Assembly (NCBI GenBank): GCA_030668485.1 | Contig: DAOUTW010000017.1 | Coordinates: forward strand, 1-64,000 | DNA from: Candidatus Zixiibacteriota bacterium | Lineage (GTDB): Bacteria; Zixibacteria; MSB-5A5; GN15; JAAZOE01 | Direction: 5' to 3' | DNA length: 64,000 nt | In this document: piece after piece, positions 1 through 64,000 of the stretch | Layout of the letters: every line of letters begins with the position of its first letter | Numbering within the stretch: position 1 is the first letter of the stretch | Translations under genes and position numbers: made by a program | Notes under the pieces: model-generated | The model's input: the letters and a program-made list of their open reading frames with translations, nothing else | Database searches by the model: none | Told to the model about the DNA's origin: nothing

Positions 1-254
1 GCTACTCCAGCGCCCCAATCGGGGACCGCATTGCCGGCCAGGCTGTCGAATTTCTTTTCGGTGGCAACGATATACATAACCAGTGAATCGGGACTCGACG
101 TCCCGATCAGTTCCCGGAGACGATTGCCGGTGAGCGTGACGACCGAATCGGCATAGGCGGCGTCACCCGGGATATCGGACATAATTTTCATCGATGCCGA
201 TAGAGGCAGGGTCAAAAGCAACAAAGCGAGAATTGTAAGACTTACGCTTTTCAT
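1..254 (-). CDS. N-terminal part of a secreted protein of unknown function (runs off the left edge)
   Basis: The reading frame opens with ATG at 254 and continues without a stop to the window edge, giving 84 codons. The first 20 residues (MKSVSLTILALLLLTLPLSA) form a typical signal peptide, so the product is exported. The rest (DIPGDAAYADSVVTLTGNRL and following) has no motif I recognise. It begins only 3 bp after the stop of the upstream M23 peptidase gene on the same strand, so the two are probably co-transcribed and the protein may share an envelope role. The C-terminal part lies outside the window, so no function is proposed. Confidence 0.6.
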   Translation of the reverse strand, partial: MKSVSLTILALLLLTLPLSASMKIMSDIPGDAAYADSVVTLTGNRLRELIGTSSPDSLVMYIVATEKKFDSLAGNAVPDWGAGV

Positions 255-2745: not shown

Positions 2746-4548
2746 ATGTTAAGTACCTTCCGCAAGTATACCAAAGTTTTTATCTGGGTGGTTGTCGTTG
2801 CCTTTGTCGGGACCATTATTTTCGCCTGGGGTATGGATGTCACTCGTTCCAAAACTCAGAAGAATATTATCGGCACTATCGATGGCACCGATATCGAGAT
2901 TCGGGCCTACCAGAACTACTATGACCGCCTCTATCAACAAGAGCAGGCCCAGAATCAAACCGAACTCGATATAGCTGCATTAAATACGATCCGGCAGCAG
3001 GCCTGGGATAACTTGGTTTCCGACTATTTACTCAATCGCGAAATCGAATCACGGCACATCTCCGTTACCAATGATGAATTCTATGCTTTCCTTAAGTATC
3101 AGCCGCCGATGGAAATTCGGCAGAGTGAAACATTTTTGGGTGAAGACGGCAACTTCGATTACCAGCAATATCTGGCCGCCCTGGCCGATCCCCGATTCAG
3201 TAATTTCTGGTCGCAGGTTGAATACATGTATCGTCCCGAACTTCGAAAACTGAAACTTCAGGATCAAATCGTGGCAACGGTTCGGGTCAACGAAGATGAA
3301 GTCCGGGAATATTACCTGAATTCCAATGAGAGGGCGACAGTTGAGATTATCAACGCTCCGGTGAGCAAATACTATAATACTGATCTTGATGTATCCGATG
3401 AAGAAGTCCGGAGTTATTATGATGGTCATCAGGATGACTATGAAATCGGCGAACGAATGTCGCTTGATTACGTGATGTTCTCCAAGGATCCGACCGAAAC
3501 CGACTGGGAATTGATTAAACTGGAAGCCGAAGAAATCAAACGAATGCTTGATCAGGGAGATGATTTTGAGGAACTGGCGATATCTTACTCAGATGACAAT
3601 TCGGCTCAATCTGGCGGTGATCTGGGATGGTTCCCCAGAGGCAGGATGGTGCCGGAATTCGATTCGGCCGCCTTCTCTCTCAAAATCGGCGAAATATCCG
3701 ATCCGGTACGGACTCAGTTCGGCTGGCATATAATCAGGGTCGACGAAAAGAAAAATGATGGTGGCGAGCAAATCCACGCCCGCCATATTCTTTTCAAGTT
3801 AAAAGCCTCCTCCGAAACTCTTGACAAAGCCTTTAACAACGCACGTGCCCTTCGTGACTCTATCGTTGATTCCGATCTGGATAGCGCCGCCGAGAAACTC
3901 GGATTCGAAGTTAAAAATACGGGACCGTTTGCCGAAAATATGCCGATTCCTGAAATCGGTTATGATAGAAATATTGTCAAATTCGCCTTTGAAGGCGAGC
4001 TCGGAGCAACTTCGCAGATCTACGAAACCGATGCGATGGCGGTAATCGTTAAAATCGCTGAAAAATTTCCAGAGGGAATAACACCGTTCGAAGAAGTTAG
4101 CGACAAAGTCCGCCGGGATTATATCAATCACCTGGCCAAGCAGAAATGCCAGCAGGATATCGCTAAGATCTGGGCCTCGATCGAAAAAGGCACGGCATTC
4201 GACAAAGCATCCAAAGAGGCCGATTATGAGCCGTTCACTTCGAAGCCTATCTCGCGCCAGGATTATATCCGAGGCATTGGTGGTGATCCGAGGATAATCG
4301 GCGGTGTCTTCTCGTTATCGGAACCGGATGATATGTCAGGCCCGATTGAGTATCTCAAGGGCTGGTGTATACTGAAACTGGTCGAACGCAAGGGTGCTGA
4401 TCTGACCAAGTATGGTGAAATCCGCGATTCTCTCTTGCAACTGGTAACCAGTCAGAAACAGCGTGATGTGTTTAACGCCTGGTATGTCGACATGGTGGCC
4501 TCAGCCGAAATTGATGATTATCTCGACGATTATTTCGGTCGACGCTGA
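2746..4548 (+). CDS. Membrane-anchored SurA/PpiD-like peptidyl-prolyl isomerase chaperone
   Basis: The 600-aa protein resembles PpiD/SurA foldases, which help exported proteins fold in the periplasm. An N-terminal membrane anchor (about residues 11-29) leaves the bulk outside the cytoplasm. A SurA-N-type helical region follows (about 40-210). A parvulin domain comes next at about 225-335, containing the hallmark GGDLGWFPRGRMVPEF and the terminal GWHIIRV. A second, degenerate parvulin-like segment starts at IHARHILF (about 345). The C-terminal part is acidic and helical. An AAGGAG ribosome site precedes the ATG at a good distance. A clear terminator follows at 4571, so the gene is probably monocistronic. 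PpiD and SurA cannot be distinguished securely; the anchor favours PpiD. Confidence 0.88.
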   Translation: MLSTFRKYTKVFIWVVVVAFVGTIIFAWGMDVTRSKTQKNIIGTIDGTDIEIRAYQNYYDRLYQQEQAQNQTELDIAALNTIRQQAWDNLVSDYLLNREIESRHISVTNDEFYAFLKYQPPMEIRQSETFLGEDGNFDYQQYLAALADPRFSNFWSQVEYMYRPELRKLKLQDQIVATVRVNEDEVREYYLNSNERATVEIINAPVSKYYNTDLDVSDEEVRSYYDGHQDDYEIGERMSLDYVMFSKDPTETDWELIKLEAEEIKRMLDQGDDFEELAISYSDDNSAQSGGDLGWFPRGRMVPEFDSAAFSLKIGEISDPVRTQFGWHIIRVDEKKNDGGEQIHARHILFKLKASSETLDKAFNNARALRDSIVDSDLDSAAEKLGFEVKNTGPFAENMPIPEIGYDRNIVKFAFEGELGATSQIYETDAMAVIVKIAEKFPEGITPFEEVSDKVRRDYINHLAKQKCQQDIAKIWASIEKGTAFDKASKEADYEPFTSKPISRQDYIRGIGGDPRIIGGVFSLSEPDDMSGPIEYLKGWCILKLVERKGADLTKYGEIRDSLLQLVTSQKQRDVFNAWYVDMVASAEIDDYLDDYFGRR

Positions 4549-4657: not shown

Positions 4658-5407
4658 ATGATACCGCTCAAAGCCGACAACCCCGCCACTCGCTTGCCGA
4701 TATTTACCATCGGCCTGATAGCCATCAATTGCCTTGTCTATTTCTATCAGATGACATTACCGGTACGAAGCGAACAATTATTCGTTTTCCAGTTTGGATT
4801 GATCCCGATAGAACTAACGAACCTGACCGACATGACACCGGATATCCCCTTCCCTGTTTTCCTTTCTCCATTCACGTCGATGTTCATCCACGGTGATTTT
4901 ATGCATTTGGCCGGAAATATGCTATACCTGTGGATTTTCGGGAACAACATCGAGGATTATCTGGGGCATTTCAAATTCCTGGCTTTTTATATTCTCTCCG
5001 GCCTCGCTGCGGTCGCTTTGTTTGTCGCCTTCGAACCGAGCGGTGAGATTCCCATGGTTGGAGCCTCCGGCGCTATAGCCGGTATACTTGGCGCCTACCT
5101 TGTCCTCTATCCGAGGGCACGGGTGCTGACCTTCATCTGGATTATATTTATTATCCGCATGATCTGGTTGCCGGCGGTATTTCTACTGGGGTACTGGTTT
5201 ATTTTACAGCTTTTCATGGGATTTATGTCGGTCGGATCGACCGGCGGCGGAGTCGCCTGGTTTGCCCATATCGGCGGCTTCGCCTTCGGATGGCTGGCAA
5301 TTCGGTACTATCGCCGAAAACGAAAATCATTATACACCACGACGACATCATACAGCAATCTTTATAACCGTTTTGAATCTGACGATGATGAATATCATGA
5401 CCGCTAA
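4658..5407 (+). CDS. Rhomboid family intramembrane serine protease
   Basis: This 249-aa polytopic membrane protein should cleave transmembrane segments within the bilayer. The rhomboid signatures are present in order: the HGDFMHLAGNMLYLWIFGNN stretch (about 85-105), the catalytic serine in GASG (S137), and the catalytic histidine in FAHIGGFAFGW (H204). The Ser-His dyad is therefore intact. Six or so hydrophobic segments fit the basic rhomboid core. The N-terminus (MIPLKADNPATRLP) is typical of the short prokaryotic class also seen in Bacteroidota and Planctomycetota. The C-terminal tail is basic, then rich in Ser, Thr and Asp. It stands alone between two terminators or gaps; the substrate is unknown. 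Confidence 0.92.
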   Translation: MIPLKADNPATRLPIFTIGLIAINCLVYFYQMTLPVRSEQLFVFQFGLIPIELTNLTDMTPDIPFPVFLSPFTSMFIHGDFMHLAGNMLYLWIFGNNIEDYLGHFKFLAFYILSGLAAVALFVAFEPSGEIPMVGASGAIAGILGAYLVLYPRARVLTFIWIIFIIRMIWLPAVFLLGYWFILQLFMGFMSVGSTGGGVAWFAHIGGFAFGWLAIRYYRRKRKSLYTTTTSYSNLYNRFESDDDEYHDR

Positions 5408-5624
5408 CATTAAGTCACAGGTCTATGCCCAAGCCGAGAAACCGAGTGCCAATTATTGCCTTGACATAACTGCTTTTCTTATATAGTATCCAATGAGGTA
5501 GAGTTGGGCTCCGGATAGGTCCATTTCGGGGCATTCCCACTATCTCGGAGCAACTCACACTATTAATTGACCTCAAGGTATCAGATTTCGAGCAATTCAG
5601 ACTTTTAGATCAGGGGGATTTGAA

Positions 5625-6698
5625 ATGTCAGAAAACATCAATGCAGTACACCGAAAGCGTGTATCGAGCGCCGTTTTGCCGGCTTTGTGCTTTTTTTGCC
5701 TATGCCTGGCCTTATTGTGCGGATGTGAGGGGCCGGAAGGACCTCCCGGCCCTGTCGGAGCGGTTGGGCCGCCGGGATCATATCCGGTGATAACTGTCGA
5801 GGATAATATCCTAACCATCCAGGATGCGATTGATTCTCTGCCTGAATCAGGGGGTACAGTCTATATCAAGGCCGGAATATACAATATTGATGAAGGGCTG
5901 CGTATTGATCGCTCGGATGTGGCTCTCATTGGAGAACCGGGAACGGTGCTGATTCTGTCCGACCATGTTAACCAGCCGGTGATTCTGGTCGGCGATGCGG
6001 CCGAAACACCCACTACGGTTATTGAAACGATCAAAATTTCCGGTATCGAAATTGACGGCAATCGGGCCGGACAGGATTCGGAAATCGACCCGAATCGAGT
6101 CTGGATTAGAAACAACGGTATCGATATCAGGATGGTGCACGATCTTACGATCAGTAATATCAATGTGCATGACGCAGTCAGCGGTGGGATTGTCGCCAGC
6201 TGGCAATGTCGCGGCTTATTCCTTGACAACCTGTCTTCTCACAATAACCAATTTGACGGCATGGCCTTCTATGACAGTGAGAATATACTGATTTCGAATT
6301 TCATCTGCCATGCCAACGATGCCGCCGGTCTGAGTCTAGACAATGATTTATCCTACGTGATCTTCGACAACGGTTTGATCAGGGATAATATCGACGTCGG
6401 GATTTTTGCCCGGCATGCCCATGATATTAGTTTCCATGACCTGATAATTTCCGGAAACCATAGTCATGGGGCGTTTATATCCCATGTCACAGAAGGGACC
6501 GGCACCGGCGTAACCCGACTCGTTTTCGAAAGTTGTTCCTTCATCGAAAATAACGGCTATGGTTTCTGGCTGGATTCCCCGGCGACGGATTCACCGAATA
6601 ATGCCCTCATGGGGTGTTTATTCTCCGGAAATGCAGACGATTCTATCCGATTGCATAATGAGGGCGTTCTCGATATGGAAGGGAATATCTTCCAATAA
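5625..6698 (+). CDS. Lipoprotein with short collagen-like stretch and right-handed beta-helix
   Basis: The 357-aa product has a basic N-terminus and hydrophobic core ending in a lipobox-like LCGC, with C34 the likely lipidated residue. Residues 36-51 form five Gly-X-Y triplets (GPEGPPGPVGAVGPPG), a collagen-like linker. From about 55 onward the sequence has the repeating pattern of a parallel beta-helix (pectate lyase/NosD type): QDAIDSLPESGGTVYIKAGI, then recurrent short strands with N and D turns such as NGIDIRMVHDLTISNINVHD. Such proteins sit on the cell surface and often bind or cleave polysaccharide; no catalytic residues can be assigned here. A GGGGG ribosome site precedes the ATG. It is convergent with another beta-helix gene 6 bp away, so the two are related in fold and location but not co-transcribed. 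Confidence 0.75.
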   Translation: MSENINAVHRKRVSSAVLPALCFFCLCLALLCGCEGPEGPPGPVGAVGPPGSYPVITVEDNILTIQDAIDSLPESGGTVYIKAGIYNIDEGLRIDRSDVALIGEPGTVLILSDHVNQPVILVGDAAETPTTVIETIKISGIEIDGNRAGQDSEIDPNRVWIRNNGIDIRMVHDLTISNINVHDAVSGGIVASWQCRGLFLDNLSSHNNQFDGMAFYDSENILISNFICHANDAAGLSLDNDLSYVIFDNGLIRDNIDVGIFARHAHDISFHDLIISGNHSHGAFISHVTEGTGTGVTRLVFESCSFIENNGYGFWLDSPATDSPNNALMGCLFSGNADDSIRLHNEGVLDMEGNIFQ

Positions 6699-61512: not shown

Positions 61513-62592
61513 TTAATAAACTTCCAGCATGCGATTCAAAGCCAGACGTGCGTCGGCCTTAATATCATCGGGAACAATAATGCGATCAAAGGTATTTAAA
61601 TTTTCCACCGTATTGGCCAGATCGGATAACGTCGTCCGGTACATATTGGCGCACACCGGGCAGGTTTGTCCCGAAAGTTCGAATATCTTTTTGTCCTGAT
61701 GCTGATGAGCCATACGATTTATCAGGTTGATCTCGGTGCCGATGGCGATAGTCGCTCCGGGCGGCTGTTCCTCGATATAATTGACGATGAACTTTGTCGA
61801 ACCCGAGGCATCGGCGTTATCGACCACCTCCCACAGGCATTCCGGGTGAACCACCACTTTTACTCCGGGGAAATTCTTCCGTACCGATTCAATATGATGT
61901 AGTTTGAAATTGGTGTGAACGTGACAATGACCCTTCCAGAGGATCAATTTGGCTCGTCGCAGCCGGTCGGCGTCGATTCCGCCCGCCTCCGAACGGAAAT
62001 CCCAGACGGCGATTTCATCGTCATTCAGACCCATCCACCGCCCGACATTATATCCAAGATTTTCATCGGGGAAGAAAAACAGCTTCTCGGCCCGATTGTA
62101 AATCCATTCATACGCCGCTTTCGCATTGGATGAGGTACAAATCATTCCCCCCTCACGACCGCAAAAAGCTTTCAACTTGGCGGCAGAATTCATATATGAC
62201 AATGGCAGAGTCTTCTCGGCAATGCCAATCTCCTGCAAGAATTCCCATGCTGCCATAACATCGTCGATATCGGCCATATCGGCCATCGGACATCCGGCCA
62301 ACGGATTGGGCAAAAACACTTTCTGATGGTCGCCCGACACAATATCAGCCGATTCGGCCATAAAGTGAACTCCGCAAAAGACAATAAACTCAGAATCGCG
62401 GCGTTGAGAGGCGGTTTTGGAAAGGTCATAGGAATCGCCGATAAAATCGCCCATAAGAGCCACTTCCAGCCTTTGGTAGTGATGAGCAAGGATGGTTAAT
62501 CGTTTACCATGAATCTTTTTGGCGTCTAAAATAATCTGACGCAACTCTTCATCGGTCGCCTGACGGTATTTATCCGGTACTGCCAAATGCAT
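61513..62592 (-). CDS. nadA: Quinolinate synthase
   Basis: NadA condenses iminoaspartate and dihydroxyacetone phosphate to quinolinate for NAD. The 359-aa protein shows LAHHYQRLEVALMGDFIGDS, the first 4Fe-4S Cys in FCGVHFMAESADI, MADMADIDDVMAAWEFLQEI, HPECLWEVVDNADASGST (second Cys) and QTCPVCANMYRTTLSDLA (third Cys). These three cysteines are the standard cluster ligands. The long N-terminal form is typical of one NadA group. It lies 137 bp downstream of the tandem peroxiredoxin genes on the same strand. Confidence 0.95.
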   Translation of the reverse strand: MHLAVPDKYRQATDEELRQIILDAKKIHGKRLTILAHHYQRLEVALMGDFIGDSYDLSKTASQRRDSEFIVFCGVHFMAESADIVSGDHQKVFLPNPLAGCPMADMADIDDVMAAWEFLQEIGIAEKTLPLSYMNSAAKLKAFCGREGGMICTSSNAKAAYEWIYNRAEKLFFFPDENLGYNVGRWMGLNDDEIAVWDFRSEAGGIDADRLRRAKLILWKGHCHVHTNFKLHHIESVRKNFPGVKVVVHPECLWEVVDNADASGSTKFIVNYIEEQPPGATIAIGTEINLINRMAHQHQDKKIFELSGQTCPVCANMYRTTLSDLANTVENLNTFDRIIVPDDIKADARLALNRMLEVY

Positions 62593-62729: not shown

Positions 62730-63167
62730 TCACTTATGATTTTCGATTGCCGTCAGGATTTCGTCGTCGGCTGGCATACCTTTTTCTGCGAAAATTATGT
62801 CGCAATCGGGCCCGATCACATATACCGTCCGCTGAACCAGTTTACCCAGAGCCTTCAAGGCCTCATAATGGCCGGTCACAGTCTTATCGGGATCGGAAAG
62901 AATGGTAAATGAAAACCCTTTTTTGTCGCAATAATTATCGTGTGATTTAACCGAGGCCGGATTGATCGCCAGAATTTCAGCACCGGCCTTCTCGAATTTA
63001 TTCCTGTCCGCCTCAAGGGCGGCCAATTGGCGATTTCACCCAGGGGTGTTATTCTTCGGGTAAAAAACCACCACCGTATAATCTGTTTCACGCTCCGACA
63101 ATGTTACCCTCCGGCCACGGGAACCATCCAGAGTGAAATCGGGAGCTTTATTGCCAGTTTGCAGCAA
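62730..63167 (-). CDS. Selenocysteine-containing PrxQ/BCP-type peroxiredoxin
   Basis: Read through an in-frame TGA at 63036-63038, this frame gives a complete 145-aa peroxiredoxin: KAPDFTLDGSRGRRVTLSER, then FYPKNNTPGU with Sec at 44, then NRQLAALEADRNKFEKAGAE, INPASVKSHDNYCDKKGFSF, and TVYVIGPDCDIIFAEKGMP. Sec sits exactly at the peroxidatic Cys of PxxxTxxC. C80 is 36 residues later, the same spacing as the resolving Cys in helix 3 of some PrxQ enzymes, so a selenenylsulphide Sec44-C80 is plausible. A TTG start follows AAGGGA at about 7 nt; TAG lies just upstream in frame. It follows another Sec peroxiredoxin by 43 bp. Confidence 0.85.
63008..63022 (-). promoter_or_regulatory. SECIS-like hairpin of the PrxQ-type selenoprotein gene
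   Basis: On the coding strand CCGCC and GGCGG form a 5-bp stem with loop CTTGA, beginning 13 nt after the TGA at 63036-63038. Position and size fit bacterial SECIS elements, whose upper stem-loop lies inside the reading frame just downstream of UGA. The loop has one G, adjacent to its 3' side. Confidence 0.6.
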
Positions 63168-63210
63168 TTTCTATCCCTTCATCAGGCAACGCCGTTTTGA
63201 ACAAAGCCGG

Positions 63211-63669
63211 TCAGGCCATTTCTTTGAGGACCTTGAACAGATCGTCATTATCCGGCGTGTCGTCTATATCATGATGATCGAGGTAGCGGATAATTCCTTC
63301 CTTATCGATAATCAAAATAACCCGATCGTTGAAACCGTCTTCAGTCAACACCCCGTAATTTTGAGCAACTTCACCGTGCGGATAAAAATCGGAAAGAAGC
63401 GGATAAGTTATTCCGCCCAGAGATTCCGCCCATGCTTCATGACTGGCAATTGAATCGACCGATACACCCAGCACCTGGGTGTTTAATTCCGAGAACTTCT
63501 CCAGATCATCCTGGTAGCCCGGAATCTGTTCGGTTCAGACCGGCGTCCAGTCGAGAGGATAAAATGCCAGGACGACATTTTTTTCTCCCCGATACTGCGA
63601 AAGCGTAATTTTCGATCCGGTATGAGACGGCAAGGTAAAATCGGGCGCCTTGTCTCCATCCTTCAACAT
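63211..63669 (-). CDS. Selenocysteine-containing peroxiredoxin with Sec as its only redox residue (AhpE/Prx-like)
   Basis: With the TGA at 63535-63537 read as Sec, the frame from ATG 63669 gives a complete 152-aa peroxiredoxin: [34 protein letters not shown] (Sec45), [58 protein letters not shown]. Sec replaces the peroxidatic Cys of PxxxTxxC. The protein contains no Cys elsewhere, so it must work as a 1-Sec enzyme with reductant from outside. GGAG lies 8 nt before the ATG. It is upstream of a second Sec peroxiredoxin in what looks like one operon. Read as two fragments by ordinary gene finders, it would look like a truncated gene. Confidence 0.88.
63487..63524 (-). promoter_or_regulatory. 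SECIS-like hairpin of the first Sec peroxiredoxin gene
   Basis: On the coding strand an outer stem TTCCG/CGGAA and an inner stem CCAG/CTGG enclose loop GATGAT. The outer stem begins 10 nt and the loop 24 nt after the TGA. The loop starts with G as in several bacterial SECIS elements. The internal asymmetry makes the fold only moderately stable. Confidence 0.5.
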
Positions 63670-63829
63670 AATGCTTTCTCCATTGAATTGAGTGATATAT
63701 GCAATTTAATATAAATTTATCGTGTTACGTTCAGCATAACGGACACCCTCATACCGCAGAGAATGCCCGGTACTACCAAATAGATACGAAGCCTGAAGTG
63801 CATGCGTATAACATTATTATCGAACGAGA

Positions 63830-64000
63830 CTATTCTTCCATGGGCGAGGATTCGTCATACGAAAACCAACTGTAATTTCCGCTCAGGGCATCCTTCTCCG
63901 CCTGCAAAAGTTCAAAATGGCTGAACTCCTCGGCCGCCATCCCCTCGAAAATCTTCTTGAATTCCTCGTCCGTGGCGTCCTTGGCCTCTTCCTTATAATA
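63830..64000 (-). CDS. C-terminal part of a ferritin-like (rubrerythrin-type) protein
   Basis: The last 56 codons are in the window; the start is beyond the right edge. The visible sequence YYKEEAKDATDEEFKKIFEG then MAAEEFSHFELLQAEKDALS has the ExxH ligand pattern (EEFSHFELL) of the fourth helix in ferritin-like di-iron proteins such as rubrerythrin. The short tail NYSWFSYDESSPMEE lacks a rubredoxin-like Cys domain, so this is not a classical rubrerythrin with C-terminal rubredoxin. Its proximity to two peroxiredoxins on the same strand suggests a shared oxidative-stress role. Confidence 0.7.
   Translation of the reverse strand, partial: YYKEEAKDATDEEFKKIFEGMAAEEFSHFELLQAEKDALSGNYSWFSYDESSPMEE

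Follow-up and report, generated by a model that had tools for sequence, protein, structure and literature searches.

An AhpE-type peroxiredoxin with a predicted selenocysteine, encoded beside a second putative selenoperoxiredoxin in a Zixibacteria genome

A Sec-containing peroxiredoxin, PrxU of Eubacterium acidaminophilum, was described in 2001 (Sohling 2001, cited in PMC13188914), and the family 'Prx' (TxxU; COG1225/PF00578) is a standard Sec family in selenoproteome surveys (PMC1794560, PMC9312934, PMC13188914). The accessible sections of these surveys give no separate AhpE-type subgroup of Prx and no Zixibacteria. Operons of selenoprotein genes are also known, in which Prx is combined with a SELENOW-like protein or a Prx-like protein with an AhpD-like protein (PMC13188914 section 9). 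According to the accessible part of PMC13188914, bacteria rarely replace Sec by Cys except in FdhA and SelD, and a 2006 survey reports, in its accessible text, Prx with Cys-to-Sec changes only and no Sec-to-Cys change (PMC1794560). The closest solved structure to the protein described here is that of AhpE from Mycobacterium tuberculosis (Rv2238c; PDB 1xxu, 4x1u, 5id2; 3e-29).

Here we analyzed a window of 64,000 nucleotides (the whole stretch of DNA examined) from an uncultured Zixibacteria lineage, which contains two neighboring peroxiredoxin genes, prxA and prxQ-U. We consider it very probable that prxA encodes a 1-Sec AhpE-type peroxiredoxin, in which a hairpin-guided UGA would be read as Sec and which would reduce peroxides as a member of a cluster with prxQ-U and a rubrerythrin-like gene. 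The enzyme type is already known, and prxA adds a further Sec-peroxiredoxin. The lineage would gain two selenoproteins and a conserved selenoperoxiredoxin pair, and the locus is worth recording for its Cys-free form, its paired layout and the apparent repeated loss of selenium in relatives. In the open literature, outside of which most subscription papers lie, we found no description of an AhpE-type 1-Sec subgroup, of pairing with a Sec PrxQ, or of repeated Sec loss.

Relation of prxA to AhpE and other peroxiredoxins

The prxA gene occupies positions 63211..63669 on the minus strand, from the start ATG (63669-63667) to the stop TGA (63213-63211), with a Shine-Dalgarno-like GGAGAAAG just 5' of the ATG (63674..63681, minus strand). 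The first-pass annotation of this DNA had placed the gene correctly but left the strand unstated; the plus strand of 63211-63669 reads as nonsense. It had also proposed that reading through the TGA at 63535-63537 gives an intact 152-aa peroxiredoxin with a PxxxTxxU motif, and both the translation and the alignment with homologs agree with this. The motif is P38-LDW-T42-PV-U45, in which the predicted Sec codon is residue 45, the peroxidatic position (63535..63537, minus strand), and Thr42 is encoded at 63544..63546 (minus strand). Homologs from dozens of genomes align across the TGA and carry Cys or TGA at exactly codon 45, and the frame is therefore not a product of chance. The in-frame UGA lies at the peroxidatic site of PxxxTxxU, where homologs have Cys.

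PrxA matches Pfam AhpC-TSA (PF00578) at 6e-41, and an AhpC-TSA/Redoxin domain is found in both PrxA and PrxQ-U. In an alignment of 25 members, Thr42, the position-45 residue and Arg116 (63322..63324, minus strand) are invariant, and no second conserved Cys column besides the peroxidatic position was found. An AlphaFold2 model, calculated with Cys typed for Sec, reached pLDDT 95 and had AhpE as its top fold match, with a TM of 0.95 and 38% identity. PrxA shares with AhpE the peroxidatic residue 45, which aligns with Cys45 of AhpE, an arginine bearing the same number, 116, and the lack of a conserved resolving Cys, and it belongs to the AhpE-type (1-Cys) class. The earlier reading of PrxA as a 1-Sec enzyme with no resolving Cys fits this class. 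Unlike AhpE, PrxA has a predicted Sec45 and no Cys at all. The absence of Cys, claimed before for the enzyme, is true of PrxA and a few relatives but does not extend to the family, since most Sec members have one or two other Cys residues.

Like the survey family Prx, prxA combines PF00578, PxxxTxxU, a peroxidatic Sec predicted to be decoded from UGA, and Cys homologs. It also resembles PrxU in being a Sec peroxiredoxin by prediction. However, PrxA scores 75.6 bits against a curated cut-off of 270 in the longer PrxU model (NCBIfam NF040737), and therefore it is not PrxU. PrxU-like genes are present elsewhere in the order: a third Sec peroxiredoxin type of this kind, with the motif FYPGDFTFVUPTEL, was seen in other genomes of the order (L154-L158, L161, L162). 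One carrier of the PrxU-like type, G073 (96% complete), gave no tRNA-Sec match.

Decoding of the prxA UGA

The genome that contains the window is a 4.5 Mb assembly, 99.95% complete. A search for the Sec genes, which the first-pass annotation had proposed as a check, found tRNA-Sec (selC, 73.5 bits), selA, selB and selD all encoded in it; selA, selB and tRNA-Sec lie together on one contig (C40). A tRNA scan and an Rfam scan of the entire window gave no match, the tRNA-Sec gene being located on another contig. The selD gene (L010 1501-2424, G000:C39) has its own in-frame TGA (Sec-SelD).

The bSECIS model, as given in the accessible part of PMC13188914, has a loop of 3-9 nt with a G in the first two loop positions, an upper stem of 4-16 bp and a spacing of 16-37 nt from the UGA to the loop. 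A SECIS check, likewise proposed before, revealed a SECIS-like hairpin after the prxA TGA (63485..63526, minus strand), in which the upper stem CCAG/CUGG stands on a longer lower stem. This hairpin, CCAG-GAUGAU-CUGG, lies 24 nt after the UGA with an apical loop of 6 nt whose first base is G, a 4-bp upper stem and a stability of -15.8 kcal/mol, in agreement with the model. Compared with 1000 synonymous-codon shuffles, it is only moderately better (p=0.039).

A clearer signal came from the family. In the 60 nt after codon 45, the mean MFE is -19.7 for Sec genes versus -10.4 for Cys genes, and the mean synonymous-shuffle z is -1.98 versus +0.28 (p=5e-14, a value that overstates independence because the genes are related). 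Other windows in the same Sec genes have a mean z of -0.19. Mean pairing shows helices at +15..21/+45..51 and +27..30/+36..39 in Sec genes only. RNAalifold gave no consensus fold for the Sec prxA set; the stem register varies between sequences, and we therefore used per-sequence pairing averages and a count over a named helix. For this helix, 30 distinct sequences give 66% paired cells and 59 double changes, and every slid register is worse than the true one in both paired cells and covariation. Its covariation is 0.331 compared with 0.147 (sd 0.020) in shuffles, and 0 of 500 shuffles reach the helix values, although the helix was picked from the very sequences tested and kinship alone can beat shuffles without structure. 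The controls with Cys genes and with other windows are free of that weakness. Within the stem, the pair +19/+47 after the UGA is mostly UA or GC; in the protein this couples Ser or Ala at one site with Glu or Ala at a second, and the amino acids may here be constrained by RNA pairing.

Homologs were sought in a set with a single genome for each species, to which 81 genomes of the order were added. Codon 45 is TGA in 61 of the homologous loci and Cys in 41. Among named genomes, tRNA-Sec exceeds the gathering score in 39/40 with the TGA form versus 7/10 with the Cys form (p=0.02); several of these matches have scores so low that they could be false positives, and with a stricter cut that drops low scorers the counts are 36/40 versus 6/10 (p=0.04). 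In families f1 and f4 of the order, tRNA-Sec was found in 12 of 13 genomes with the TGA form versus 3 of 8 with the Cys form (p=0.014). No tRNA-Sec match was obtained in G076 (77% complete), which has a TGA-form prxA, or in G007 (71% complete), which carries prxQ-U.

These results bear on three other explanations of the TGA. Formally, codon 45 is a stop, and a standard ORF finder returns both prxA and prxQ-U as fragments only, so that mechanical ORF calling shows both genes as truncated. A nonsense mutation could have left prxA (and prxQ) as a pseudogene or as two fragments. We regard this as very improbable: dozens of diverged genomes share a TGA at this codon and conserve the remainder of the protein, a Sec-specific covarying hairpin follows it, and the Sec machinery is present. 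A sequencing or assembly error for TGC or TGT, the codons found at position 45 of Cys homologs, has a next to negligible chance of being the cause. TGA also occurs there in independent assemblies, including the complete chromosomes of Tumebacillus avium and Neobacillus sp., and an error would leave the SECIS-like hairpin unexplained.

The identity of the inserted residue goes beyond what sequence alone can say, and the UGA might instead be decoded as Trp, Cys or another amino acid through a code change or leaky readthrough. This too is highly unlikely, although slightly less so than the other two. TGA is the ordinary stop of 8 of the 44 large non-overlapping ORFs in the window, including the one ending at 4548, as the first-pass annotation had noted, and it also ends both peroxiredoxin genes. 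In addition, the aligned residue of homologs is the catalytic Cys, and the association with tRNA-Sec and the SECIS-like hairpin favor Sec decoding. Recoding of the UGA to Sec in prxA is thus well supported on computational grounds.

For Sec decoding, we propose that the hairpin downstream of codon 45 would direct SelB and tRNA-Sec to read the prxA UGA as Sec. By analogy with AhpE, the Sec45 selenolate, set by Pro38, Thr42 and Arg116, would attack H2O2 or an organic hydroperoxide and be converted to a selenenic acid. Because PrxA has no Cys, an external thiol would be needed to reduce this selenenic acid, possibly thioredoxin, a glutaredoxin-like protein or a low-molecular thiol.

The prxA/prxQ-U pair and its neighbors

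The second gene, prxQ-U, was absent from the first-pass annotation. It starts 43 bp downstream of the prxA stop on the same strand (62730..63167, minus strand), has a TTG start preceded by a Shine-Dalgarno-like GAAGGGA (63174..63180, minus strand), ends with TGA followed by TAA, and is predicted to encode a PrxQ/BCP-type Sec peroxiredoxin of 145 aa. Its putative Sec codon is TGA at residue 44, within TPGUNRQ (63036..63038, minus strand), and orthologs have TGA at the same codon. The protein matches PF00578 at 2e-31, and it scored 70.1 bits with the bcp model NF006960 (thioredoxin-dependent thiol peroxidase), under the curated cut-off of 140. It also matches BCP/PrxQ structures, with U44 at the TPG-C/U site and Cys80 (62928..62930, minus strand) at their second Cys. 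With Xanthomonas BCP/PrxQ (PDB 5iox, 3gkk) it has in common the TPG[C/U] site and the second Cys in SVKSHDN(F/Y)C, but it differs in having a predicted Sec at the peroxidatic site. The TPG-C/U site together with a second Cys in helix 3 places PrxQ-U in the PrxQ/BCP class. Cys80 is a candidate resolving Cys and is missing from several orthologs. PrxQ-U may act as a second Sec peroxidase, for which a Sec44-Cys80 selenenylsulfide is possible. After the UGA of the window prxQ-U no hairpin fitting the SECIS model was found; the ortholog set has a weak stability excess (mean z -0.99, p=0.003).

Orthologs of prxQ-U were found in 16 of the 133 phylum genomes examined, all of them from this order. The two genes are co-directional in all 16 carriers, with a gap of 33-139 nt in 12 and of about 1.9 kb in 4 genomes of one genus. 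The active site of prxQ is TGA in 15 of the 16, the sixteenth (G061) having no active site, and close orthologs in which the site is retained show no form other than TGA. The neighboring prxA has Sec in only 2/16, namely the window genome and G057, and no in-frame stop in the remaining carriers. As in the known selenoprotein operons, prxA and prxQ-U are adjacent redox selenoprotein genes by prediction; unlike in those operons, both are peroxiredoxins, from different subfamilies.

Upstream of prxA lies a Cys-free, rubrerythrin-like diiron gene, whose 3' part falls within the window (63830..64000, minus strand) and which runs on to contig position 64330; the same order was found in two relatives (L152, L153). 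The rubrerythrin-like gene, prxA and prxQ-U would make up a probable peroxide-defense cluster, with a putative operon structure. The downstream neighbor nadA, encoding quinolinate synthase (61513..62592, minus strand), follows the pair in the window genome and in G061 and is probably outside the system. The gene directly after prxQ-U in G057 (L153 ~4903-5928, G057:C385) encodes a flavin pyridine-nucleotide oxidoreductase, a candidate electron donor. In G061, prxQ has lost about 25 residues in frame, among them the Sec site (L152 4741-5103, G061:C24). The broken prxQ stands beside a Cys-form prxA with tRNA-Sec still in the genome, and the locus may represent a lineage leaving Sec use or an assembly fault.

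Sec and Cys forms across lineages

Carriers of prxA homologs belong to Zixibacteria, Bacillota, Chloroflexota, Acidobacteria, Nitrospirae and others, so that a 1-Sec peroxiredoxin subfamily can be recognized across several phyla. A tree of 98 rows (61 TGA and 37 Cys) contains at least 8 changes between Sec and Cys labels, of which at least 4 are forced by well-supported branches. When the order was examined in a focused tree, its Cys forms did not group into a single clade (AU p=0.015). Considering that the outgroups are Sec, three Sec-to-Cys changes are the simplest reading of this tree. More than one change of prxA from Sec to Cys thus seems to have taken place within this Zixibacteria order. 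This direction is likely but not proven, because a single long branch sets the root and because the group was defined only after the first tree had been seen.

We lean somewhat towards a broader proposal for the cluster, in which the AhpE-type enzyme changed from Sec to Cys several times independently in the order and its PrxQ partner stays Sec while intact. If true, this would contradict the view that bacteria seldom change Sec to Cys except in FdhA and SelD. It would also provide a natural series of steps by which a lineage abandons selenium, namely Sec/Sec, Cys/Sec, Cys with a broken PrxQ, and loss of the Sec trait. The co-occurrence of Sec and Cys forms in a single order supplies closely matched pairs, with which one can ask what advantage Sec gives a peroxidase and why it is abandoned.

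The first-pass annotation had associated Sec-containing Prx proteins with some anaerobes. Such proteins are not confined there: Neobacillus and other Bacillales often carry this subfamily. The Bacillota carriers include many Neobacillus and relatives as well as Desulfosporosinus. In Bacillales (Neobacillus, Mesobacillus, Tumebacillus; L019, L023, L024, L026-L037, L039-L043), the Sec AhpE-type is common, and tRNA-Sec is present in the carriers tested. These culturable organisms are useful hosts, and their orthologs make the enzymology testable.
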